From Coriobacterium glomerans PW2 (GTDB lineage Bacteria > Actinomycetota > Coriobacteriia > Coriobacteriales > Coriobacteriaceae), in assembly GCF_000195315.1 (NCBI RefSeq), contig NC_015389.1, positions 248,001 through 312,000 of the forward strand: 64,000 nt of DNA, given 5' to 3'. The notes beneath the pieces were generated by a model. It was given only the letters and a program-made list of their open reading frames with translations, made no database searches and was not told where the DNA came from. How positions within the stretch are numbered: position 1 is the stretch's first letter; each line of letters starts with the position of its first letter. Of this stretch, positions 2,491-54,084 are shown one piece after another. The translations under genes were made by a program, and so were the position numbers.

Positions 2491-5430
2491 ATGCGCTGGT
2501 TTCATAAGAGGTCAATCGGTGCAGGTGCGTGCGAGACCCACATCGGCCTGCATCGCCTCGCGGCCTTTGTCATAGCGGCGATCATCATCGCATGCACTGC
2601 GTTGTCGGTCGAATCTGTCGGATTTGCTGATCCCTCGTCTGGTGGTCGCGAGGCAGCTGTCATCGAAAAAGGCTCGGCGTCGGGCGAGAAAGATGGTGGC
2701 GATGCGCATGATGCTCATGGCGATGCCGCGACCGATACCGCAGATGCGGACGCGCACGGCAAGAAAGAGCCCGATACCGCAGATGCGGATGCGCACGACA
2801 AGAAAGAGCCCGATGCCGCAGATGCGGACGCGCACGGCAAGAAAGAGCCCGATGCCGCAGATGCGGGCTCGCACGACAAGAAAGAGCCCGATGCCGCAGA
2901 TGCGGACTCGCACGACAAGAAAGAGCCCGATGCCGCATCGGGGGACAAGAACTCAGATGGTCCCTCAGCGGATGACCGCCCTGTGCTACATGGCATCAAG
3001 AGCATAAACGGAGAGCGGTTCACCTCCGATCAGGCGCACGGCACGTTTACCGTCGATCTCTCCGTTGCCACGGGCGAGTCGGGCGCGCTCGTGGAAGACA
3101 TCATGAAGGTCGATGGAAACTCTTGGAGCGGAGACGGTGCCGACAAGGGCAGCTACACGTTTTGGAAGCTCAGCTTGAAGGGAACCGATGACGGCACGGA
3201 CTACGGAACAAAGCAAAGGGGCAGCGGCGGCAACCAATCGAATACCGGAACCAACATCTCCCGGGTCAAGAAGGATGCGGACGGCGAGATCGAGTTCATT
3301 CCCTTGGATAAGAACGGCAATCCGGGCTCTTGGACGAAGGTGCACGGAAACGGCTCCGATCTGCAATTCGTTTTCTACTTTCTACAGGATATGCCCGTCG
3401 GAAGCAATCCGTCCTACGTGAAGTTTCATGTATCTGATTGGTTCGTTCGCGACTTCACGCCCCCGGGAGGTCGGGGAAGCTCCACGGGGAGAGGCATCAT
3501 CGTCGAGGTAGTCGATCGAGACAGCGCCGAACAGCTCGCCCAGAGCGGAACCATGTATTACTACAGCACCACGTCTGGGGTGGAGACGCTGACGGCTGAC
3601 GCGGTTGATCTGGGCAAATACCAGATCACCGGTATCGAGAAGTTCAAGGCGGCTGATCAGGGCAACTCGAGGCCGTGGACCTCTACTGCCAAGGAGGATG
3701 CGAACAACCCGATCGCAAGCTACACCTTCGATCAGATGCATGACGGCACCATGGCTGTGAAGTGGGATAAAGACGATCCCAACCATGTGATCTTCACCGT
3801 CAGCGTCAGCAGAACCGCTCAGGTGAGCCTCGAGAAGCGCCTCACCGGCCCTGATTCCGATGTCTATCAGAACAAGACCTTCACATTCTCGGCTGGGTTG
3901 GAGGTACCCGACGGCAATCCATTATCGACGGCCTACCCCGCAAAAGGGCTTGCAGACGGTGCGACAGAGGTCCGTGTGACCAAGGATGCTTCAGATCCGT
4001 CTCGCGGTGAGATCACCGGTATCGCTGCGCGACCGGGTGTCCCGATCACGATCAGCGGTCTGCCTCCAGAGACAGGGGTGCACTTCAGTGAGGCAGGTAC
4101 TCCGGAACGCGATCCCTCGGTGTTCACGACTTCATTTGACAACGATGTTTCTCACAGCACCGACGGTTCCGCGACGGCTCGCGAGGTCGACCAGACCGGG
4201 GACAAGCGGCCCCAGACCGTCACGACGACGAACCGGGTGAGTTCGGGACAAGGCAAGCTTACCGTCACCAAGAAGTTTACCGGACTCAAGAAGATGACAA
4301 GTCAGGACCGCATCAATCTCAACGAGTCCTTTCTGATAGAGTCCGATGGCAAGGCCTTTCCCGCGCTGCTTCTCAACAACTGCACTGATGTTACGCCATC
4401 TGGTGGAATCTTGGATGAGAGCGCGGACGAGGTCACCTACACATGGAAGCTGAGCAGAGTTGCAACCGGGCCGGCCACGCTCATCGAGCGCAACTACGCC
4501 GTCTCCTCGACTGACGTCGCGGCACAGACACGTATCGGCGAAGGTTCCTACAACCTCTCCGACACCGTCGTACTGAAGAATATATCCGATACCCCTACGG
4601 CAGTGCTGTTCATGAATGAATACGGATCGGGCAGCACGGACCTGAGCGTTCACAAGAATTGGGAGCGCACCGAACAGGATGAGAAGCTCCCCGTCACCGT
4701 CGAGGTCGACTGGAAGGGGTCCATACCCGGCGCAACGGGCGAGGTGCCGGGGGGCCTTGTAGGCACCTACACCATCGACGCGAAGACCGATTGGGCGATG
4801 GCTCTTCAGGGGCAGCCGACGCACAGCACGGTGTTGGGAGATATAACCTACAGTGTGACCGAGACCGCTGTCGGCGGTTCTGATCCCGAGGATGCCGGAT
4901 TCACCTCGACGGTTTCAACAGACGGAGTCAACGCCTTCACCGTCACCAACGAGAAGACGCTCAAGATCGGGCTCAGAATCAAAAAAGTCGACGAGGACGG
5001 TGGATCGCCGCTACAAGGTGCCGCATTCACTCTGAGCGATGAAGACGGGACCCCCGTCGGTGAGGAGACCAAGGTCGATTCGGATGGCGTCGCAGCCTTC
5101 GATGATGTTCGCGTCGGTTCCTACCTCATCTCCGAGACGTGCGCGCCCGCCGGCTACCAGCTCGCCGCGAACCCTTACCGGCTCAACGTATCGGTTGACG
5201 CTGTCACCGTGTTCGTGCCCGATGCTCAAGGCCACTACCCGGATACCGGTGTCGTCGTGCCGGCCTCAGAGGACGGGGCGTATCGGATGACGTTCTCCGA
5301 CCGGAAGGCTCCGAACCTTCCCTCGACGGGGCTGCCGGGCCCTGCGATAGCCGAGGCGGCAGCTGTGACCGTCGCGGTCGCAGCGGGCCTGCATGCTCTG
5401 GCGTCGGCATTCGTGCGCAGACAGGGTTGA
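2491..5430 (+). CDS. LPxTG-anchored Cna-B/SpaA surface protein
   Basis: This is a predicted sortase substrate and cell-wall adhesin or pilin-like protein of 979 aa. A long signal peptide has a hydrophobic core LAAFVIAAIIIACTAL and a likely cut after GFA. An acidic, low-complexity stalk of five 13-residue repeats follows (about residues 82-146), then an unassigned globular region (about 165-420). Several beta-sandwich repeats come next, including Cna-B-like segments (GKLTVTKKF near 580, LSVHKNW near 720) and a SpaA-type prealbumin domain (LRIKKVDEDGGSPLQGAAF near 830). The C-terminus has LPSTG, a hydrophobic helix and the basic tail RRQG. No sortase gene is in the window. The ligand cannot be predicted. 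An AGAGGGCGGG site precedes the ATG. Confidence 0.88.
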   Translation: MRWFHKRSIGAGACETHIGLHRLAAFVIAAIIIACTALSVESVGFADPSSGGREAAVIEKGSASGEKDGGDAHDAHGDAATDTADADAHGKKEPDTADADAHDKKEPDAADADAHGKKEPDAADAGSHDKKEPDAADADSHDKKEPDAASGDKNSDGPSADDRPVLHGIKSINGERFTSDQAHGTFTVDLSVATGESGALVEDIMKVDGNSWSGDGADKGSYTFWKLSLKGTDDGTDYGTKQRGSGGNQSNTGTNISRVKKDADGEIEFIPLDKNGNPGSWTKVHGNGSDLQFVFYFLQDMPVGSNPSYVKFHVSDWFVRDFTPPGGRGSSTGRGIIVEVVDRDSAEQLAQSGTMYYYSTTSGVETLTADAVDLGKYQITGIEKFKAADQGNSRPWTSTAKEDANNPIASYTFDQMHDGTMAVKWDKDDPNHVIFTVSVSRTAQVSLEKRLTGPDSDVYQNKTFTFSAGLEVPDGNPLSTAYPAKGLADGATEVRVTKDASDPSRGEITGIAARPGVPITISGLPPETGVHFSEAGTPERDPSVFTTSFDNDVSHSTDGSATAREVDQTGDKRPQTVTTTNRVSSGQGKLTVTKKFTGLKKMTSQDRINLNESFLIESDGKAFPALLLNNCTDVTPSGGILDESADEVTYTWKLSRVATGPATLIERNYAVSSTDVAAQTRIGEGSYNLSDTVVLKNISDTPTAVLFMNEYGSGSTDLSVHKNWERTEQDEKLPVTVEVDWKGSIPGATGEVPGGLVGTYTIDAKTDWAMALQGQPTHSTVLGDITYSVTETAVGGSDPEDAGFTSTVSTDGVNAFTVTNEKTLKIGLRIKKVDEDGGSPLQGAAFTLSDEDGTPVGEETKVDSDGVAAFDDVRVGSYLISETCAPAGYQLAANPYRLNVSVDAVTVFVPDAQGHYPDTGVVVPASEDGAYRMTFSDRKAPNLPSTGLPGPAIAEAAAVTVAVAAGLHALASAFVRRQG
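2734..2928 (+). repeat. Five tandem 39-bp repeats in adhesin stalk
   Basis: Five in-frame 39-bp units start at 2734, 2773, 2812, 2851 and 2890, and a partial sixth begins at 2929. Each encodes a variant of DAADADAHGKKEP. Differences are few (ACC/GCC, GGC/GAC, GCG/TCG), so the array is probably recent and liable to change copy number without a frameshift. Confidence 0.95.
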
Positions 5431-43097: not shown

Positions 43098-44876
43098 TCA
43101 CAAGGACCCTGACTCGTCCTTTGAGACCGCGCGGATCATGTCAAGCACGTTCGATACCATGTCCGGAGCGTTCATTCCGCACCGCTTCAGCAACTCGCCG
43201 GGATCGAATCGATCGAAGAACCGTTTCGGTATACCGTAGCAGCGCACACGAGCGGGGCTGGGTCCGAGATAGCGCGCGACCTTCTCGCCCCACCCCCCGT
43301 CGAGGACGCCATCTTCGATGGTGATCACCACTGCATGGTCGCGTCCGATCGCCTCAAGGCACCCCTCGTCCAGCTCGCTTCCGAAACGCGGGTTCACCAG
43401 TGTCGCACGAATGCCGTGATCCTCTGCGAGCATGTCGGCTACGCGTTCGCCTAGCGTGAAGAGGGACCCGAGCGCCAGAATCGCCACGTCTCCTCCGGTT
43501 CGCGCGACCTGATAGCTGGGAGCTGAAAACGACGGGCTGGATCCCTCCGGCGCGAGATCGGACCGCGAGATGACACCGGTCTCGGGTATGCGGATCGCAA
43601 CGGGCCCCTCGCGCTGGTCGAGCGACCATCTGAGCATCGCCTCATACTCCTCGCGGCACACCGGTGCGAGCACGCGCATGGCGGGAAGGCTGCCCAGCAT
43701 CGCCAAGTCGAAGAATCCCAGATGCGTCTCGGCGGAGCTGCCGAAGACCGATGCTCCGAAGACGAGAATCGTGGCGGGTGCCGCGTTCAGGCACATATCG
43801 TGCCACAGCTCATCATACGCACGTTGCAGAAACGTCGCGTATACTCCGAAGACCGGTTTGGCACCCGCCTGCGCCAGCGCGGTCGCATAGGTCACGGCGT
43901 GCTCCTCGCAGATGCCGACATCGACGTAGCCGGCACCGGCTGCAGCGCGACGAGCCGGTGTGAAGCCCATGATGTAGGGGGTCGCTGCAGAGATGGCCAC
44001 GACGGCGGGATCGTTTTTTATCCGCTCGGAGAGCAAGCCGCCGGTGATGTCGGCGTAGCAGACCGACCCTTCGGCGAACGGATGCGGATCGGGTATCGTC
44101 GCGCCATCGGCGAGGGTGAACGGGGCGGCATGATGCCAACTCTCCGGATCCCTCACGGCCGCAGGGAAGCCCGCACCCTTCAGCGTGTGGACGTGCAGCA
44201 CGACTGGATGATCGATGCCGCGCAGGCTTTCGAGAGCAGATGCGAGAGCGTGGACGTCGTTGCCCTCCTCCACATAGCGGTAGTCGAGTCCCAGGGCACG
44301 GAAGAAGTTGTGCTGCGCCTTGCCGTGCGTGCGTCGCAGCTCAGCGAGATTGCGGTAGATGCCGCCGTGGTTCTCAGCGATGGATCGGTTGTTGTCGTTG
44401 ACGATGATGATGAGACCGCACCCCAGGTCGGCTGCGTTGTCGAGCCCCTCGAAGGCGAGGCCGCCCGACAGCGCCCCATCGCCGATGACCGCGATGACGT
44501 CGTATGTCTCTCCCTCGATCTCGCGAGCCTTGACGAGACCGCAGCCCAGCCCGATCGAGGTCGAGGTGTGGCCCATGGCGAACAGGTCGAAGGGGGACTC
44601 ATCGGGGTTCGAGAAGCCCGACACCTCTTGGTAGCGCGTGGGATCGAGAAACGCCGCCGCGCGACCGGTCAGAGCCTTGTGCGCATAGGTCTGATGCGAG
44701 ACATCGAAGATGAGTCGGTCGCGAGGCGTGTCGAATACGCGGTGGAGCGCGACGGTGAGCTCGACGACACCCAGATTGGGTCCGACGTGGCCTCCGACGA
44801 CGGCGGAGCTCTCAAGGATCGCGCGACGCAGCTCACCGCACAGCGCGTCCAGCTCGCTGGACGGCAGCGCGCGCAC
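43098..44876 (-). CDS. dxs: 1-deoxy-D-xylulose-5-phosphate synthase
   Basis: DXS condenses pyruvate and glyceraldehyde-3-phosphate with thiamine diphosphate, the first step of the MEP isoprenoid pathway. Motifs include VGGHVGPNLGVVELTVALHRVF, FDVSHQTYAHK, the TPP/Mg motif GDGALSGGLAFEGLDNA...VNDNN, and VGICEEHAVTYATALA. The first standard start is GTG 44876 (592 aa), but it lacks a ribosome site. Thirteen codons upstream, in the same frame, encode a DXS-like N-terminus (GLLEHITSPKDV) that begins at ATA 44915, three codons after which no ATG occurs. A TGA closes the frame two codons before the ATA. The true start is therefore unclear. Confidence 0.95.
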   Translation of the reverse strand: MRALPSSELDALCGELRRAILESSAVVGGHVGPNLGVVELTVALHRVFDTPRDRLIFDVSHQTYAHKALTGRAAAFLDPTRYQEVSGFSNPDESPFDLFAMGHTSTSIGLGCGLVKAREIEGETYDVIAVIGDGALSGGLAFEGLDNAADLGCGLIIIVNDNNRSIAENHGGIYRNLAELRRTHGKAQHNFFRALGLDYRYVEEGNDVHALASALESLRGIDHPVVLHVHTLKGAGFPAAVRDPESWHHAAPFTLADGATIPDPHPFAEGSVCYADITGGLLSERIKNDPAVVAISAATPYIMGFTPARRAAAGAGYVDVGICEEHAVTYATALAQAGAKPVFGVYATFLQRAYDELWHDMCLNAAPATILVFGASVFGSSAETHLGFFDLAMLGSLPAMRVLAPVCREEYEAMLRWSLDQREGPVAIRIPETGVISRSDLAPEGSSPSFSAPSYQVARTGGDVAILALGSLFTLGERVADMLAEDHGIRATLVNPRFGSELDEGCLEAIGRDHAVVITIEDGVLDGGWGEKVARYLGPSPARVRCYGIPKRFFDRFDPGELLKRCGMNAPDMVSNVLDMIRAVSKDESGSL

Positions 44877-45180: not shown

Positions 45181-45708
45181 GTGCGCAACAGCTCAGGTGT
45201 AGCGAGGGAAGCCTCGGATACGATCGAAGAGGTACGTGTTCATGCTCGCGCTCTCGAGGATGAGGGTCGCTTGGGGCTCACCCGATCTTTCATCCAGCAT
45301 GGCAGCGAGAGCGTCTATGCGCATGTGCTGTCGGTCGCACTTCTGAGCGCTTCCATCGCGGACCGCTGTCGGCGCATCGGGATTCGCATCGACCGCTCCT
45401 CGCTCATCCGCGGGGCGCTTCTGCACGACTACTTCCTCTATGACTGGCACGATCCCGATCCAGACCATCGACTTCACGGTTTCCGACACCCCTACATCGC
45501 GCTTGAGCGCGCCACGGAGGATTTCGACCTCACTGACTGCGAGCGCGACATCATCGTCCATCACATGTTTCCGCTCGTGCCCCTTCCGCCGACCTGTCGC
45601 GAGGCTTGGATCGTCTGCATTGCGGACAAGTGCTGTGCGATTCGCGAGACGGTCGCCGGCCGCCTGTCCTCACGGGTGAGCGGTGTCATACGCGGCAGAC
45701 GCACATGA
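45181..45708 (+). CDS. HD-domain phosphohydrolase
   Basis: This 175-aa HD protein is a metal-dependent phosphohydrolase. Metal ligands are visible as H in VYAHVLSVALL, HD in RGALLHDYFLYDWHD, HPYIALERA, HH in DIIVHHMFPLVP, and D in VCIADKCCAI. The substrate is unknown. The start is GTG 45181 with GAGGAATCGCG. Its stop overlaps the start of the CmpB-like gene (ATGA), and this pairing of HD protein with CmpB-like membrane protein suggests coordinated expression. Confidence 0.87.
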   Translation: MRNSSGVAREASDTIEEVRVHARALEDEGRLGLTRSFIQHGSESVYAHVLSVALLSASIADRCRRIGIRIDRSSLIRGALLHDYFLYDWHDPDPDHRLHGFRHPYIALERATEDFDLTDCERDIIVHHMFPLVPLPPTCREAWIVCIADKCCAIRETVAGRLSSRVSGVIRGRRT

Positions 45709-46472
45709 GGGTTCCATTTGACGTTGCCAGCGCGGTCGCGGGACACGTGCGGCTCATCTCATCCGGTATGCTGGCGCTCGGCGGTGCGACACTGGCGGAC
45801 GCTCCCGCCTCGGCGCTGTTCCTCTCGTTCGCCTTCTACGGCTTCATCGGCTGGGCGTACGAGTCGACTCTGTGCGCCCTTCTGAACCACGGGTTCTTCT
45901 CGAACAGCGGCTTTCTTCTGGGTCCGTGCTGCCCCATCTACGGCGTCGGCGCGCTCGCGTGCTGGCTCGGATTGCGCGGCATCGAGAGCGTCCCGGCGCA
46001 GTTCGTCTCAGCCGCCCTCGTCTGCTGCGCTATCGAATACGTCGCGGGATGGTGGCTCGAGCGCACGACCCGCGCGCGCTTTTGGGATTACTCGGATTTC
46101 CCCTTGAACATCAAGGGACGGGTGTGCCTGTACGGGGTGCTCGTCTTCGGGACCGGCGCGGTGCTCGTCTGCCATGTCATCCAGCCGTCTGTGCTGCATG
46201 CGCTCTCGCTCGCACCGGGCTGGCTCGTGGTCGCCGCCGCCGTGCTCATCGGCCTCGTGATGGCGATCGACGCCGTCTTCGCGCTGGCGAGCTGGAAGCG
46301 CCTCTCCTCCCAGCTCGAGACCGTTCGCAGCGAGCTGGCCGATCGCATCAACGAGTCGCTCAAGGAGACCTCGGACTCCATGGCTCGCCTCGCTCGGTGG
46401 GCGTCTGATGCGAAACGACGACACGGACTTCAAATGGAATCTGAACATCTCACCGGAAGGGAACACGCATGA
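45705..46472 (+). CDS. CmpB-like membrane protein, C-terminally altered by inversion
   Basis: The protein belongs to the 'putative ABC transporter type IV/CmpB' family (PF06541-like), with five helices starting FAFYGFIGWAYESTLCALLNHGF and the GPCCPIYGVGAL motif. Residues 34-226 are encoded by the 579-bp repeat and match the protein at 50119-51054. After the repeat the frame continues for about 29 unrelated residues (ARLARWASDAK...) to a stop that overlaps the next ATG. The copy on the right carries the long helical C-terminus expected for the family. This gene therefore looks like the true 5' half joined to foreign sequence. Confidence 0.8.
   Translation: MRVPFDVASAVAGHVRLISSGMLALGGATLADAPASALFLSFAFYGFIGWAYESTLCALLNHGFFSNSGFLLGPCCPIYGVGALACWLGLRGIESVPAQFVSAALVCCAIEYVAGWWLERTTRARFWDYSDFPLNIKGRVCLYGVLVFGTGAVLVCHVIQPSVLHALSLAPGWLVVAAAVLIGLVMAIDAVFALASWKRLSSQLETVRSELADRINESLKETSDSMARLARWASDAKRRHGLQMESEHLTGREHA
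45804..46382 (+). repeat. 579-bp inverted repeat, left copy
   Basis: The sequence from 45804 to 46382 reads the same as the reverse complement of 50473-51051. I found no mismatch when aligning by eye. Identity starts at CCCGCCTCGG and stops after ACTCCATG. The two copies border a 4.09-kb segment. No transposase, integrase or terminal short repeats accompany them. Confidence 0.93.
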
Positions 46473-46612
46473 AAGAGCTTCTCAAGGCGGATCTGTATCG
46501 CATGACACGCATGACCAAGCTGCATGGCTACCTGTGGAGAGCGCTGATCATCGACGGTATCGTGATCGCCGGGTTCGTCTTTCTGCTCATATCAAAGGGA
46601 GATGGCAGGTAA
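46469..46612 (+). pseudogene. Truncated ABC permease N-terminus
   Basis: A 47-codon ORF encodes MKELLKADLYRMTRMTKLHG, YLWRALIIDGIVIAGFVFLL and ISKGDGR. The first 25 residues are the conserved start of the neighbouring permeases, but only the first membrane helix remains. GGAAGGGAACACGC gives it a good ribosome site, and the next permease starts six bases after its stop. It is either a decayed permease gene or, less likely, a functional micro-protein. Confidence 0.65.
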
Positions 46613-46617
46613 TCACT

Positions 46618-47523
46618 ATGTTTGATCTTCTGAAAGCGGATCTGTATCGGATGTCGCGGCCGACCCGGCTCCACGGCTACCTGTGGAAGATGCTGGCAAT
46701 ATCAGTTGTGCTGACAGCGCTGTCAGCGGGCATTCTGCTCATGATGCCTTCGCTCATGCAGAGTGCGCACAGCGCGGCGGGAGATGCCTCCAGAGTCAGT
46801 TTGGAGCTGAAGGCGTATGAGCAGATGGCCGGCGCACCCTCTACAATGATTGGATCGGCCCTCATGTCCGGGTCGAACAACGTCGGGATGCTTCCTCTGA
46901 TCGCCTGCTTCGGCATGATCATCCCGTGTCTGTCTGATTTCAACCGCGGCTTCGCAGCTTCGGTCACGACCTCGAGACGCGGCCGTCTCGGTTACTTGGC
47001 AGAGAAGACCGTGCTGGCTGGGATCTGGAGCGCGATCGTGTTCGTATTTATGGCGGCGCTCGTCGTCTGCATGGTCTACGTTCTCGGCAAGCCGTTCAGA
47101 ACAGCAGAGCCCATCGGGGAGCTCGCAGCATGGGCTGGCTGCTGCTGGTTGTGCTTGTGGGCACTGACGGCCATCTCGCTCGCACTGGCGTTCATCACGC
47201 GCAACGCCCCGGTGACCTATCTCGGAGCGATCCTGATCATGATGGGCGTCGTTCCGAATCTGGTCGAGCTGGGAGCGCAGTTCATAGGAGCTGCGGGCGC
47301 GCTGGCACCGGTGGCTGACGGCCTGCACGAGATGATGAACTGGTTTCCTTCGCACTGCGCTGCCATACTGCGCGGCGGCGTATCCGCCCTCTCGCGGCCC
47401 GCGGCCGGAACGATGGCCTCGTTTCCCGGTGGCTTCGCCGGACAGGCCGCTATCGCAGGGATCACATGGGTTGCACTCGCCGGCGGGTGCACCCTCGCCT
47501 GGGCTCGGCGCCAAAGGATCTGA
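46618..47523 (+). CDS. ABC-2-type permease of bacteriocin-immunity/bacitracin-export kind, paralog A
   Basis: This 301-aa permease has six helices. It starts MFDLLKADLYRMSRPTRLHGYLWKM, followed by TM1 and a large external loop, then LIACFGMIIPCLSDFNRGF and the cytoplasmic KxVT-type SVTTSRRGRLGYLAEKTVL segment. The external FPSHCAAILRGG precedes the last helix. It is similar to the products at 47572 and 51058, and the ATPase at 52030 is the natural partner. Such LanE/LanG-like or BcrB-like subunits export or expel peptides from the membrane. It now reads opposite to the ATPase gene. Confidence 0.85.
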   Translation: MFDLLKADLYRMSRPTRLHGYLWKMLAISVVLTALSAGILLMMPSLMQSAHSAAGDASRVSLELKAYEQMAGAPSTMIGSALMSGSNNVGMLPLIACFGMIIPCLSDFNRGFAASVTTSRRGRLGYLAEKTVLAGIWSAIVFVFMAALVVCMVYVLGKPFRTAEPIGELAAWAGCCWLCLWALTAISLALAFITRNAPVTYLGAILIMMGVVPNLVELGAQFIGAAGALAPVADGLHEMMNWFPSHCAAILRGGVSALSRPAAGTMASFPGGFAGQAAIAGITWVALAGGCTLAWARRQRI

Positions 47524-47571
47524 TCGATAGGCACCGATTGCGGCATGCGGGCCCGAACGGAAGGGACGATC

Positions 47572-48483
47572 ATGGTAAACCTGCTCAAAGCCGATCTGTT
47601 TCGCATGAGCCGAGTTGCGCGCATGCACGGCTACCTCTGGAGATGGATGATCGGTCTTTTCATCGTGATGATCATGATGAATGGGATATTCTCCATCGGG
47701 GCACAGGTCATGTGCGATCAGGCGATCGCTGGAAACATCAGCGATCAGCAGCTCCGCTCAGCCCAAACCTCTCTTCAGATATATGAAATGACACCATCTG
47801 CATTCTTCGCCGTCTTTCTCACCTCACCCCATCGGGGCTCTGGCCTGCTCGTGCTGCTCGGATGCATAAGCGCCACGGTCATGTATATCACCGATACGGG
47901 GTGTGGCTACGCGAGCGCGGTCAGCACCTCGACGCGGGGCCGCCTCGCCTTCGCCGCCGAGCGGATCGTCCTCGCCGGTGTCTGGACGGCAGCGCTGCTG
48001 ATCATCATGATGTCTCTCAGCGTGCTCACCATGGTGCCGTTCGGTCACATGCTGCACACCGGCGAGCCCATCGGCAGGTTTCTGCTGTGGGCCCTCGATG
48101 CATGGCTCAGCTGCTGGGCTCTGAGCGTCGTCTCGCTTGCCATCGCCTGTCTCACGCGCAGCACGGTCGTCTCCCTGGGGGCCAGCGTCCTCATCGGCGC
48201 GGGTGTCGTCGCGCGTCTGGTATCCGGCGCCGCGGCGCTGCTCGCCATGCTCGTTCCCGAGCAGCCCGTCTGGTCGTCAATTCTGGGGGATATCGCAGCG
48301 CTGTTCCCCTCGACCTGCCTTGATCTGCTGCATGCGGGAGGAGCGTCGTTGTCACAAGCCGCGACCGGAGCGCTGGCGTGGCTTCCCGGCGGAGTCGCCG
48401 CCCAGGCGCTGCTCGTCGGTGGCGGCTGGACCATCTTGGCAGCAGCGGTGATCCTAGCGGTCTCGCGCCGCGCGCCCGTCTGA
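47572..48483 (+). CDS. ABC-2-type permease, paralog B
   Basis: This 303-aa, six-helix protein has the same design as the preceding gene: MVNLLKADLFRMSRVARMHGYLWRW at the N-terminus, AVSTSTRGRLAFAAERIVLAGVWTA in the cytoplasmic loop, and FPSTCLDLLHAGGASLSQAATGALAWLPGG near the C-terminus (segments quoted in part). GGAAGGGACGATC precedes ATG 47572. The start lies 48 bases after paralog A, so the two are co-transcribed. Confidence 0.85.
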   Translation: MVNLLKADLFRMSRVARMHGYLWRWMIGLFIVMIMMNGIFSIGAQVMCDQAIAGNISDQQLRSAQTSLQIYEMTPSAFFAVFLTSPHRGSGLLVLLGCISATVMYITDTGCGYASAVSTSTRGRLAFAAERIVLAGVWTAALLIIMMSLSVLTMVPFGHMLHTGEPIGRFLLWALDAWLSCWALSVVSLAIACLTRSTVVSLGASVLIGAGVVARLVSGAAALLAMLVPEQPVWSSILGDIAALFPSTCLDLLHAGGASLSQAATGALAWLPGGVAAQALLVGGGWTILAAAVILAVSRRAPV

Positions 48484-48517
48484 TCTGCTCTATCCGAAGG
48501 GGCGGTGCGAGCATCTT

Positions 48518-49000
48518 ATGTTGAATCTGCTGAGAGCCGATCTCTTTCGCCGGCGCATGGTACGCCTACATCTTGTCTGCGGTGACAGCGGTCGCATTGC
48601 TGCTGCTCGGATTTTCGGCATCTCCGCTCTGGCTGTAGAGCCGCTCGGAGCCCTGTTGCTCTGAGCGCTCGAGACATGGCCGTATCTGGGGGTTGCTTCG
48701 GCGATCGGGACCGCGGCGATCTATCTCTCGCGCAGCATCGTCGCAGATCTGCTCGGCGCATTCGTCTTCGCCTCGGGGATGATCCCCTATATGATGAGAG
48801 GGATTGCGAAGTGGATCTTCGAGGCCGGTATCGGCTGCCTTCTCACTGACATGCGCGTTCCATGAGGCCGCGAACCGGTTTCCCAGCCAGTGTCTCATCG
48901 GGCTCAGAGCAGGCAGCGGCGCGCTTCTAGGTTCTGATTTGTGCGCGGCTGGAGGCGCAGGCGTCTCGACATGGATCCAGACCGTTCTTGTCTGCATGGG
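48518..49000 (+). pseudogene. Decayed third permease paralog
   Basis: MLNLLRADLFRRRMVRLH begins a permease-like frame that stops at 48664. Other frames continue the homology: WYAYILSAVTAVALLLLG (about 48558-48640), then WPYLGVASAIGTAAIYLSR and GAFVFASGMIPYMMRGI (about 48675-48866), then FHEAANRFPSQCLIGLRAG and VSTWIQTVLVC in yet another frame up to about 48997. Several frameshifts and a deletion of the middle region are needed to explain this. The C-terminal FPS.C motif is shared with paralogs A and B. Confidence 0.8.
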
Positions 49001-49042
49001 TCGGCGCGGTCGACCCGCCAGACGCGAAAGGAGGCTCGCCAT

Positions 49043-49957
49043 ATGGACAGCGCGACTCTGATTGCGCTTTCGCTCATCATCGGGCTGGGTTTGGGCATGG
49101 TGCTCGGCACGTCGGTCTACGCGGTGGAGCTGCGTCGGATGGCGCGCTTTCTGCGCGATCGCGAGCGACGCAGCGGAGCCCGTCTCACCCTGAAGACGTT
49201 CGGACCCGGATTGCGCGAGCTTGCCGTCGCGGTGAACACCGAGCTCGATCAAGGGCTGGAGGAACGCGTTCTCGCCCTTCGCAGACGGCAGGAGTTCCAG
49301 CGCGACCTCTCGGCGCTCTCGCATGATATCCGAACCCCGCTCACCGGGGCGAAAGGCTACCTTCAGCTTGCAACCGGCGAGCGGCAGGAGCGGATGCGGA
49401 CACGCTATCTCGAAGCCGCGAACGCGCGCATCGACTCGACGATCCGCCTGCTCGATCAGCTGTTCGCCTACACGAGGGCAAGCGATCCCGATCTGGTTCT
49501 CAGCCGAGAGACCGTCGACGTCGCTCCGATCATCGAGGCGGTTCTGTTGGCCCACTTTCCCGAGTTCGAAGAGCGTAAATGGGAGCCGACAGTTCACATG
49601 GAGGCCCGTGGGGTCACGGTCGTCGGGGACCGCGACGCTCTGTGTCGCATCGCGGAGAACCTTGTGACCAACGCCATCCGCTACGGCGTGAGCGCCCCTC
49701 TCATCGAAGCGCGCGACGGACGCCTAGTCTTCTCGAACCGCATCGCGGATCCCTCGGCGCTCGATGTCGAGCGCCTCTTTGACCGGTTCTATCAAGCTGA
49801 TTCCTCACGCGGCGCGGCCGGTGCCGGGCTCGGTCTGTCGACCGCTCACAAGCTGGCGCAGGCGATGGAAATGGACCTCACAGCATCAGTCGAAGACGAC
49901 ATGTTGATGATCGAGCTGGTGTTCGATTCCCCGAGATCGCCGGATGCTGTTGGGTGA
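49043..49957 (+). CDS. Sensor histidine kinase
   Basis: This 304-aa membrane kinase has a single N-terminal helix (ATLIALSLIIGLGLGMVLGT) and almost no external domain, as in the intramembrane-sensing kinases linked to peptide-detoxifying ABC transporters. The H-box is ALSHDIRTPLTGAKGYL (His94). N-box RIAENLVTNAIRYG and G-box GAGLGLSTAHKLAQAM follow. AAAGGAGGCTCGCCAT precedes ATG 49043. The likely partner regulator is at 53341-54084 on the other strand. The separation is explained by the inversion. Confidence 0.92.
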   Translation: MDSATLIALSLIIGLGLGMVLGTSVYAVELRRMARFLRDRERRSGARLTLKTFGPGLRELAVAVNTELDQGLEERVLALRRRQEFQRDLSALSHDIRTPLTGAKGYLQLATGERQERMRTRYLEAANARIDSTIRLLDQLFAYTRASDPDLVLSRETVDVAPIIEAVLLAHFPEFEERKWEPTVHMEARGVTVVGDRDALCRIAENLVTNAIRYGVSAPLIEARDGRLVFSNRIADPSALDVERLFDRFYQADSSRGAAGAGLGLSTAHKLAQAMEMDLTASVEDDMLMIELVFDSPRSPDAVG

Positions 49958-50118
49958 GCGGCAGAACGCTCCGAACGGAGCGACCGCGAGGAGCGATTGA
50001 CTGTCGGGTGAACGCATCCGAGGCGAGAGAACGCATGCCGCCGAGCCATCGGGCCACGCCTGCCGCATCGTGCTGAGAATCTGTCTTGCTCCCGAATCCG
50101 ACTCTCGCAGCCGATGAC

Positions 50119-51054
50119 CTACTTCCGACGACGGAACAGATCCCTGGCCCTGTCCTTGAGGCGCGTCGCCCGAATGATCCCTTCATAGGAGAACATGCGA
50201 AGGTGTGGGAAGGCGTTGAAGAAACGCAACTCACGCCGATTCAACGTGAGCTTGGGAGCCTGCCTCGGTCTGCGCGGCGCGCCGCCTGCCAGGCGCTCGG
50301 CGACCATGCGCAGGCTGTTCGCCCCATCCGCGATGAAAGAGGGCAGCTCGACGCGCTCGCGCAGCGTGTCGAGCACCGCGTCAGAGATGTCGCTCAACCA
50401 GCAGTTGATCTCGCGTCCGCGCTCGTGCACGACCTCGGCGGAATCGAGAGCCGAATCCGGAACGCGCCCCAACATGGAGTCCGAGGTCTCCTTGAGCGAC
50501 TCGTTGATGCGATCGGCCAGCTCGCTGCGAACGGTCTCGAGCTGGGAGGAGAGGCGCTTCCAGCTCGCCAGCGCGAAGACGGCGTCGATCGCCATCACGA
50601 GGCCGATGAGCACGGCGGCGGCGACCACGAGCCAGCCCGGTGCGAGCGAGAGCGCATGCAGCACAGACGGCTGGATGACATGGCAGACGAGCACCGCGCC
50701 GGTCCCGAAGACGAGCACCCCGTACAGGCACACCCGTCCCTTGATGTTCAAGGGGAAATCCGAGTAATCCCAAAAGCGCGCGCGGGTCGTGCGCTCGAGC
50801 CACCATCCCGCGACGTATTCGATAGCGCAGCAGACGAGGGCGGCTGAGACGAACTGCGCCGGGACGCTCTCGATGCCGCGCAATCCGAGCCAGCACGCGA
50901 GCGCGCCGACGCCGTAGATGGGGCAGCACGGACCCAGAAGAAAGCCGCTGTTCGAGAAGAACCCGTGGTTCAGAAGGGCGCACAGAGTCGACTCGTACGC
51001 CCAGCCGATGAAGCCGTAGAAGGCGAACGAGAGGAACAGCGCCGAGGCGGGCAT
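50119..51054 (-). CDS. CmpB-like membrane protein with native C-terminus
   Basis: This 311-aa protein has residues 2-194 encoded by the 579-bp repeat, giving the same five-helix core as the product at 45705. It then has a 117-residue helical, basic cytoplasmic tail (LGRVPDSALDSAEVVHERGR ... RELRFFNAFPHLRMFSYEGI ... RDLFRRRK) typical of the family. Its N-terminus is reduced: the ATG lies one codon before the repeat and six bases after the upstream permease stop, with no ribosome site of its own beyond coupling. The 5' end of the natural gene is therefore at 45705. Confidence 0.8.
   Translation of the reverse strand: MPASALFLSFAFYGFIGWAYESTLCALLNHGFFSNSGFLLGPCCPIYGVGALACWLGLRGIESVPAQFVSAALVCCAIEYVAGWWLERTTRARFWDYSDFPLNIKGRVCLYGVLVFGTGAVLVCHVIQPSVLHALSLAPGWLVVAAAVLIGLVMAIDAVFALASWKRLSSQLETVRSELADRINESLKETSDSMLGRVPDSALDSAEVVHERGREINCWLSDISDAVLDTLRERVELPSFIADGANSLRMVAERLAGGAPRRPRQAPKLTLNRRELRFFNAFPHLRMFSYEGIIRATRLKDRARDLFRRRK
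50473..51051 (-). repeat. 579-bp inverted repeat, right copy
   Basis: This is the reverse complement of 45804-46382, same length, with no mismatch seen. Outside the repeat the flanks diverge at once. Both junctions carry the trinucleotide ATG (46380-46382 on the plus strand; 51052-51054 read on the minus strand). Confidence 0.93.
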
Positions 51055-51057
51055 GTC

Positions 51058-51909
51058 TCAGATGCTCCTGCGCCTGAAGAGCATCAGCAGCCCTGCGCTC
51101 AGAGCCGCGATCCAGCCTGCGCTCACGATCAGAGCCTGCGTGCCGAATCCTCCCGGCAGCAAGCCGGCTGCGCTGACAGCGGGCTGAACCAGCGCGATGC
51201 CCCCCGAGCCCAGCACCGCCAGACAGCTGCTGGGTAGCCACGCGGATAGCTCCGCGAGAGTGTGGGACAGAGCCGGCAAAGAGAGCATGACTTCTGTGAG
51301 AGAGCTCAGGGCCTGCAGTGCACTGGGCACGAAACCGGAGATGATGAACAGGCTTGCTATGTAGCTCACGCCAGAGTTGCGCGTGAGGCTCGCGATGACG
51401 ATGAAGGCCACTGCGAGCGCCCAGACGCAGATCCAGGTCTCGAACATCCACAGGAGAAAGATGCCAGGTTCGCTTATGAGCGAATCGTAGCGTGCGAAAG
51501 GGATGAAGAGCGCAAGCAGCGCTATCGCCAAGATCAGCTCCATGATCGCAGTCCAGATGCCAGCCATCACGATCTTCTCGACAGCATAGAGAGCGCGTCC
51601 GCGTTTCGAATCTATGACGGTTTGGATGAAACCCTGTTTCAGGTCAGAGAGCATAAGTTGAAGCACGCCCAGACATACGAGGAATTGAAGTACGCCAGTT
51701 GAAATCAGGTACATGCCGAAGAACTGCGAAAGCGAGGAGAACCGCTGATCCCCGAAGACTATGTCGGCGGATTCTCGTGAGGTGATCACTCCTGCTACTG
51801 CAACTAACGCGCAGATGCAGGCGAGCCAAACAAGATACCGCCACAGATATCCATGGAGCCGCTTCGGCCTGGTCATTCGATAGAGGTCCGCCTTCAGAAG
51901 GTTGAACAT
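51058..51909 (-). CDS. ABC-2-type permease, paralog C
   Basis: This 283-aa permease is co-directional with the ATPase gene at 52030. It starts MFNLLKADLYRMTRPKRLHG and has six helices, the loop FIQTVIDSKRGRALYAVEKIVMAGIW, and LPSSCLAVLGSGGIALVQPAVSAAG before the last helix. The likely start is ATG 51909; the ribosome site (CGGGTGATCTC) is poor. It would form the membrane part of the exporter with one of the paralogs on the other side of the inversion. Confidence 0.87.
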   Translation of the reverse strand: MFNLLKADLYRMTRPKRLHGYLWRYLVWLACICALVAVAGVITSRESADIVFGDQRFSSLSQFFGMYLISTGVLQFLVCLGVLQLMLSDLKQGFIQTVIDSKRGRALYAVEKIVMAGIWTAIMELILAIALLALFIPFARYDSLISEPGIFLLWMFETWICVWALAVAFIVIASLTRNSGVSYIASLFIISGFVPSALQALSSLTEVMLSLPALSHTLAELSAWLPSSCLAVLGSGGIALVQPAVSAAGLLPGGFGTQALIVSAGWIAALSAGLLMLFRRRSI

Positions 51910-52029: not shown

Positions 52030-53085
52030 TCAGCCCTTGGTGCGACTCTCCGGCCCTGTGCCACCCATGAGCTCGACGAAGTAGTCCTCGATATCGCGCT
52101 CGCGCCGGCTGAGTTCCAGTACCGTCTGGTCTGCGTCATGCAGAATCCGCGAGACCTCCTCGACGCCGGGGGAAGCCGCGGCAGCTGTCTGGACGCCCCG
52201 GCCGTCGCCTCGGCCGATGGCGCCCCGTTCGTACGATCCGGGCGTCTGCGCATGGATGGCGGTCGAGATGACGATCGCCTGGTCGGGCTCTACGTGGATC
52301 GTCGCGTCGGGCAGCCGCTCCTCCAGCACGACGAGCGCTCGCGCCGGGTCGGCGGTCTTCACGAGTATCGAGCTTCCGCACGACGCATGCAGCTGCTCGG
52401 TGCTGAACTCCTTGACCATCGAGCCGTCCCGGATGACGCCGAAGCGAGTCGCCATCCGGTTGAGCTGGTCGAGCACGTGGCTCGAGATGACCATCGACAC
52501 GCCGCGTTCCTCGTTCAGGCGGGCGAGCGCGCCGCGGAGATCACGCGTCGCTTCGGGGTCCATGCCGTTGAACGGCTCGTCGAGCAGCAGCAGGTCCGGC
52601 GAGCCGACGAGCGCCAACGCCACGCCCAGCCGCTGCTTCATGCCCATGGAGTAGCCCTTCACGCGCCTGCCGTCAGCGGCGTCGAGGCCCACCAGGTCGA
52701 GCAGCTCGCCGCACTGGGTGCGGGCGCGAACGACGCCCATGGAGATCGCCTTGGTCATCATGTTCTCGAGCGCGGAGAGACCCGGCACGAGACCGGGTGT
52801 CTCGATGAGCGCGCCGATGTGGGAGGGCTCCGATGAGAGCAGCTCGCGCAAGCTGCGGTGCTCGGCCGAGATGCGCTTCTCATGCGGCATTCCTCGAAAC
52901 AGGACTGCCTCGCCTGAGGTCGGGATGACTAGGTCGGCGAACATCTTCATGGTGGTCGACTTGCCGGCGCCGTTCTTGCCGACGAAGCCGTAGATGTCGC
53001 CTTGCGCGACGCTCATCTCGAGCGCATCGACCGCGCGCCTGCCGCCGTAGACCTTCGTGAGGCCGTGGGTCTCGATGACGTTCAT
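52030..53085 (-). CDS. ABC transporter ATP-binding protein, BcrA/LanF-like
   Basis: This 351-aa ATPase has Walker A GKNGAGKST (about residue 38), signature YSMGMKQRLGVALAL, Walker B LLLLDEPFNGMDPEA and the H-loop in ISSHVLDQL. The C-terminal part (about 215-351) is the regulatory extension found in bacitracin/lantibiotic transporter ATPases, here with an Ala/Gly-rich stretch around residue 300. The start is set at ATG 53085 after GGGAGCGGAC. The gene drives the permease paralogs around it. Confidence 0.92.
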   Translation of the reverse strand: MNVIETHGLTKVYGGRRAVDALEMSVAQGDIYGFVGKNGAGKSTTMKMFADLVIPTSGEAVLFRGMPHEKRISAEHRSLRELLSSEPSHIGALIETPGLVPGLSALENMMTKAISMGVVRARTQCGELLDLVGLDAADGRRVKGYSMGMKQRLGVALALVGSPDLLLLDEPFNGMDPEATRDLRGALARLNEERGVSMVISSHVLDQLNRMATRFGVIRDGSMVKEFSTEQLHASCGSSILVKTADPARALVVLEERLPDATIHVEPDQAIVISTAIHAQTPGSYERGAIGRGDGRGVQTAAAASPGVEEVSRILHDADQTVLELSRRERDIEDYFVELMGGTGPESRTKG

Positions 53086-53340: not shown

Positions 53341-54084
53341 TCACTCTTCGACGAGTTTGAAGCCCATGCCCCACACCGTCCTGATGTAATCGGCTGTGCC
53401 TGAGGCTCGCAGCTTGGTGCGGATGTTGGAGACGTGCACGTTGATCGTGTTGTCGTCGGCGGCGTAGGGCTCGCCCCAAGCGCCCTCGAACAGCTCCTGC
53501 TTGGTGAAGACGCGCCGGGGATGGCGCATGAGGATCTCGACGATATTGAACTCGATGCGCGTGAGCGCGACCGGCTCGCCGTGTGCCGTGAGCGTGCGGG
53601 CCTCGGTGTCGAGCTCCCAGCTGCGAAAGCCGAGCGCGCCGTGAGCGCCGGGCGCGGTTCCGCTTGGGGCTCGCCGATGGCGCAGCTGGACCTCGACGCG
53701 GGCGAGCAGCTCGTCAAGGTCGAACGGCTTTGCCAGATAGTCGTCGGCACCGAGTTTCAGCAGGTCGATCTTGTCGCTTGGCGCGGCGCGCGCGGAGATC
53801 ACGATGATCGGCGCGGACGCGTCGCGTGCGCGGATCAGCTCGACGAGCTGCTCGCCGGGCATGCCCGGCAGCATGAGATCGCAGATCACCACCGAGAAGG
53901 GGATGGGCGTCGCATCGTTCTCGTCGCTGTTCGCAGCGTTATCACCGCGCTCGAGCAGCAGCCGCGCCTCGCTTCCCGAGTACGCCTGCGTGCACGAATA
54001 GCCGTGACGTGAAAGATGGGTGCTCACGATCTGGCTGATGTCAGCGTCGTCCTCGATGATGAGCACGCGGGCGGGAGATGTCAT
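53341..54084 (-). CDS. OmpR-family response regulator
   Basis: The 247-aa regulator has receiver residues EDD (11-13), phospho-acceptor Asp69 in VVICDLMLPGMPGE, and Lys in DDYLAKPFDLDELL. A longer-than-usual insert (GDNAANSDENDATPIPF) lies just before the Asp strand. The winged-helix domain includes ALTRIEFNIVEILMRHPRRV and TINVHVSNIRTKL. ATG 54084 overlaps the stop of the acetyltransferase gene (ATGA). The probable partner kinase is at 49043. Target genes are likely the ABC transporter operon downstream, across a 255-bp gap. Confidence 0.93.
   Translation of the reverse strand: MTSPARVLIIEDDADISQIVSTHLSRHGYSCTQAYSGSEARLLLERGDNAANSDENDATPIPFSVVICDLMLPGMPGEQLVELIRARDASAPIIVISARAAPSDKIDLLKLGADDYLAKPFDLDELLARVEVQLRHRRAPSGTAPGAHGALGFRSWELDTEARTLTAHGEPVALTRIEFNIVEILMRHPRRVFTKQELFEGAWGEPYAADDNTINVHVSNIRTKLRASGTADYIRTVWGMGFKLVEE

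Follow-up and report, generated by a model that had tools for sequence, protein, structure and literature searches.

The locus lies in a 64-kb stretch of DNA (the window), which belongs to a genome of 2,115,681 bp assembled as a single contig. Its central feature is a pair of inverted arms of 579 nt each, in which string equality and blastn detected no mismatch, and which are spaced 4090 nt apart. The left arm forms the middle of a CmpB-like gene behind an HD-domain gene, and the right arm adjoins a permease gene of an exporter operon. The positions of the features are collected in Table 1.

Table 1. Features of the locus, given in window coordinates
Feature	Position	Strand	Remarks
DXS-like gene	43098..44876	-	divergent neighbour of the HD gene, conserved in 25/34 relatives
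HD-domain gene (PF01966)	45181..45708	+	directly upstream of CmpB in 34/34 relatives
CmpB_L	45705..46472	+	255 aa: native N-terminus, repeat and 29-residue non-native tail
Left arm	45804..46382	+	193 in-frame CmpB-like codons; whole Pfam domain PF06541 inside
Unique segment between arms	46383..50472		4090 bp; inverted relative to relatives
Permease D'	46469..46612	+	47-aa truncated remnant; start overlaps CmpB_L stop
Permease A of exporter	46618..47523	+	resembles permeases encoded next to the ATPase in relatives
Permease B of exporter	47572..48483	+	exporter permease
Decayed permease remnant	48518..about 48953	+	internal stop; tblastn pieces
Histidine kinase (HisKA + HATPase_c)	49043..49957	+	50-59% identical to the kinase beside response regulator/ATPase in relatives
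CmpB_R	50119..51054	-	311 aa: ATG, repeat and native C-terminus
Right arm	50473..51051	-	identical inverted copy of the left arm
Permease C	51058..51909	-	outside the segment, right side
ABC ATPase (PF00005)	52030..53085	-	outside the segment, right side
Response regulator (Response_reg + Trans_reg_C)	53341..54084	-	outside the segment, right side

Base-level alignment gives 100% identity between the arms, and blastn with extended arms places the end of their homology exactly at the tabulated bases on both sides, in agreement with the earlier note, which had described inverted copies of equal length without mismatch and with flanks that diverge at once. The 579-nt arm occurs only twice in the whole genome, and no inverted repeat of at least 40 nt other than this pair is present within the window. 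An identical inverted pair of this length cannot be the product of chance. A mobile element was ruled out as the cause; the arms are an internal part of a conserved chromosomal gene and are absent elsewhere in the genome. The plasmid collection that was searched provided no informative match, and scans for promoters and terminators returned numbers close to chance.

Permeases A, B and C are mutually 34-37% identical and constitute a tandem family. We also note that three members of this family are intact and two are decayed (46469-48953), whereas relatives have one or two permeases beside the ATPase.

CmpB-like reading frames in the two orientations

CmpB_L is composed of 33 native codons, 193 arm codons and 29 tail codons, and its ATG (45705) overlaps the stop of the HD gene. 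The tail has a GC3 of 0.43, as compared with 0.85 for CmpB and 0.75-0.90 for the neighbouring genes, and finds no match among the relatives. Its atypical GC3 and the missing match speak against a genuine gene end, and the tail is preferably read as what was once the spacer between two permease genes. CmpB_R is composed of a single codon (ATG at 51054) followed by 193 arm codons and 117 native C-terminal codons, and alignment with relatives identifies its C-terminus as the family's own to the last residues. The ATG of CmpB_R is situated 3 bases past the stop of permease C, with an AGGAG ten bases before it. A search of solved structures gave no CmpB relative.

Flipping 46383-50472 in a script yielded one CmpB of 343 aa (33+193+117 codons) and, on the other strand, a CmpB ORF of 223 codons (1+193+29). 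The arm is in frame on either side, so every exchange of gene ends is open, namely 33+193+117, 33+193+29, 1+193+117 and 1+193+29 codons. Since the arms hold exactly 193 in-frame codons, each orientation contains two open CmpB proteins, of 255 and 311 aa or of 343 and 223 aa. The earlier note had placed the left copy in an HD-coupled CmpB-like gene with an unrelated tail and the right copy in a gene with a family-typical C-terminus and only one codon before the repeat, and had proposed that flipping joins the natural 5' and 3' halves of CmpB; all three readings are borne out by these coordinates, the tail composition and the 343-aa ORF.

As assembled, the HD gene would head a transcription order of foreign-tailed CmpB, permeases A and B and the kinase, and the response regulator-ATPase-permease C series would run into a CmpB that has no N-terminus. 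After flipping, a complete CmpB would come behind the HD gene, and no gene would be missing from the exporter operon, which would contain a 223-aa CmpB core. Turning the segment would consequently move the kinase and two permeases between operons, with a predicted effect on regulation.

Gene order in the family

The sample consists of 67 genomes of the family, in which this genome is the sole member of its genus. A close CmpB homologue is encoded in 35 of the 67, this one included; two copies are found only here (1/35), the other 34 having a single copy. A wider scan of genome contigs for CmpB recovered only distant relatives. In 34 of 34 relatives the HD gene is located directly upstream of a full-length CmpB on the same strand, with the native C-terminus in the same reading direction, and in 25 of them the DXS gene is divergent from the HD gene. 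The HD gene and the long CmpB-like gene (45181-46472 in the window; related loci L043-L049 and L069-L095) can be regarded as a conserved unit, often accompanied by divergent DXS. Three of the loci (L073, L080 and L082) have a single stop codon close to the C-terminal end of the aligned part of CmpB, where a slightly shorter protein probably ends.

The second unit, response regulator-ATPase-permease-kinase in that order on one strand, is present in 15 relatives. Genome G075 contains both units at one locus, in the order HD(+), CmpB(+), HK(-), permease(-), ATPase(-), response regulator(-), and G089 has HD(+), CmpB(+), HK(-), permease(-), ATPase(-), matching G075 up to the end of the contig piece taken. 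This is the order that the window assumes when 46383-50472 is flipped. The co-directional block in relatives agrees with the earlier proposal that the flip aligns the permeases and the kinase with permease C, the ATPase and the regulator. A search for relatives with the present order as the ancestral one, the case named beforehand as contrary to the proposal, gave the opposite result, with an HD gene and one full-length CmpB in all 34. The broader statement that flipping restores two gene orders stands as regards the relatives, G075 and G089; the flipped form is, however, not a clean ancestor, because the second 579-bp copy would then remain between permease C and the next permease.

Gene order across the family thus shows the flipped arrangement to be the ancestral one. 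From the HD-CmpB, response regulator operon and G075/G089 orders it follows that the assembled order would be derived, or would represent one of two phases of invertible DNA, or would have been phased wrongly. Mis-phasing, in which the duplication is real and the assembly chose the wrong orientation across two identical 579-bp copies, so that the cells (mainly) have the flipped order, is unlikely in our judgement. In its favour, the flipped order is the usual one in the family and interrupts neither CmpB nor the operon, the 579-bp repeat is longer than short reads, and all four repeat-flank junctions consist of the same words in either orientation; the genome is nevertheless one finished contig, whose orientation paired or long reads could have set. 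The second arm itself is probably real, because reads from a simple chromosome without it would link permease C directly to the next gene, and the uncertain part of the assembly is its orientation.

Origin of the rearrangement

We consider it probable that the locus arose by a lineage-specific inversion with an inverted duplication, whose arms could turn the segment again by homologous recombination. One breakpoint would lie inside the CmpB-like gene; the second would fall in the response regulator-ATPase-permease-HK operon, between permease C and the permease next to it. There, 579 bp (193 codons) of CmpB would have been copied in inverted orientation, and the intervening 4.09 kb would have been turned around. 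The segment is indeed inverted relative to the relatives, and the sequence of one breakpoint is found duplicated and inverted at the other, the CmpB piece being native to HD-CmpB and copied beside permease C. The junctions (the slash marks the join) read CTCCATG/TTG in CmpB, CTCCATG/GCT at the left inner end and GAGACATG/CCC at the right outer end. At the site of the second arm, the right outer flank is GAGACATG and the left inner flank starts with GCTCGCC, and the CmpB sequence at the distal end of the arm is CTCCATG; the join is marked by a shared CATG (or by the start ATG). An inversion in one step and an origin in two steps, in which an inverted copy is inserted and recombination follows, leave the same sequence. 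GC and AT skew along the segment gave no indication of when the event took place.

The lack of any mismatch over 579 nt indicates either that the duplication is recent or that the arms are kept identical by exchange. This weighs on the alternative of a fixed inversion, that is, one past event in an operon that is losing function, with no important flipping, which would need to be very recent if exchange did not continue. The kinase, the ATPase, the regulator and both CmpB ORFs are moreover intact, although the segment contains two permease remnants and the assembled order cuts off the kinase and two permeases from the regulator and the ATPase; we regard this alternative as rather unlikely. The decayed permeases may mean that the locus is eroding, and they are counted against the explanation by inversion and duplication.

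A precedent for the inversion with inverted duplication is DNA duplication associated with inversion, which was originally described from H. pylori (Furuta 2011, cited through PMC4671568 and PMC8963470). As outlined in these two citing papers, an inversion is flanked by an inverted duplicate of the sequence of one breakpoint, and a gene is duplicated and gene orders are broken together, as observed here. In contrast to those accounts, the present case belongs to an actinobacterial family (Coriobacteriaceae), the duplicated piece is internal and exactly in frame, and the intermediate ancestor is deduced from other genera rather than from strains of one species. The type of rearrangement is known; its location is new. 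The comparative data fix the ancestral order, and the inversion and inverted duplication are resolved to the base, with one gene and one operon split and every ORF open.

Possible recombination between the arms

Homologous recombination between arms of this length and identity, separated by 4 kb, could turn the segment again, and a culture would then probably hold both orientations. RecA is encoded in the genome, and ongoing flipping of the segment is plausible.

In invertons of the fim type, a site-specific recombinase acts on short sites, and the DNA turned is mostly a promoter. The present locus resembles them in having potentially invertible DNA between inverted repeats, and differs from them in that the arms are 579-bp gene copies instead of short sites. 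A dedicated phase-variation switch operated by a site-specific recombinase would be consistent with CmpB genes that are open and in frame in both orientations and with a kinase that swaps its operon on flipping. Such a switch is nonetheless very improbable: the whole genome contains no serine recombinase/invertase (PF00239), its only two tyrosine recombinases (PF00589), the number expected for XerC/XerD, are both about 0.6-0.75 Mb from the locus, and no linked or dedicated recombinase is left as a candidate. The arms are, furthermore, long gene copies and not short recombination sites, and the arrangement is absent from all relatives examined.

Long repeats offer a closer comparison. In the pneumococcal hsdS locus spnIII, about 17% of a 16-h colony had undergone switching at a 333-bp inverted repeat, and RecA was not needed for this (PMC6620402). 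In view of this, an identical 579-bp pair separated by 4 kb could well be active. In both loci, genes contain long inverted repeats, and an inversion between them exchanges gene ends. At spnIII there are three repeats and a recombinase gene, and switching has been measured (PMC6620402); the locus described here has one pair and no linked recombinase.

That the segment flips by recombination at an appreciable rate in the living symbiont, as a recently born phase switch without a recombinase, is a tentative proposal, possible but doubtful. If it is true, cells would pass back and forth between a state with full-length CmpB and an intact sensor-exporter operon and another with two half-swapped CmpBs and the kinase under the HD-gene promoter. 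Both orientations in cells would make the locus a young recombinase-free switch and an example of how invertible loci begin; otherwise, it would be either a rearrangement that has become fixed or a reference-genome phasing error in need of correction, and in the latter case two annotated CmpB genes would be wrong.

Elsewhere in the window, 2491-5430 encodes a surface protein of 979 aa that bears an LPSTG motif at its C-terminal end; near its N-terminus, at 2671-2943, lie five tandem repeats of 39 bp (13 residues).
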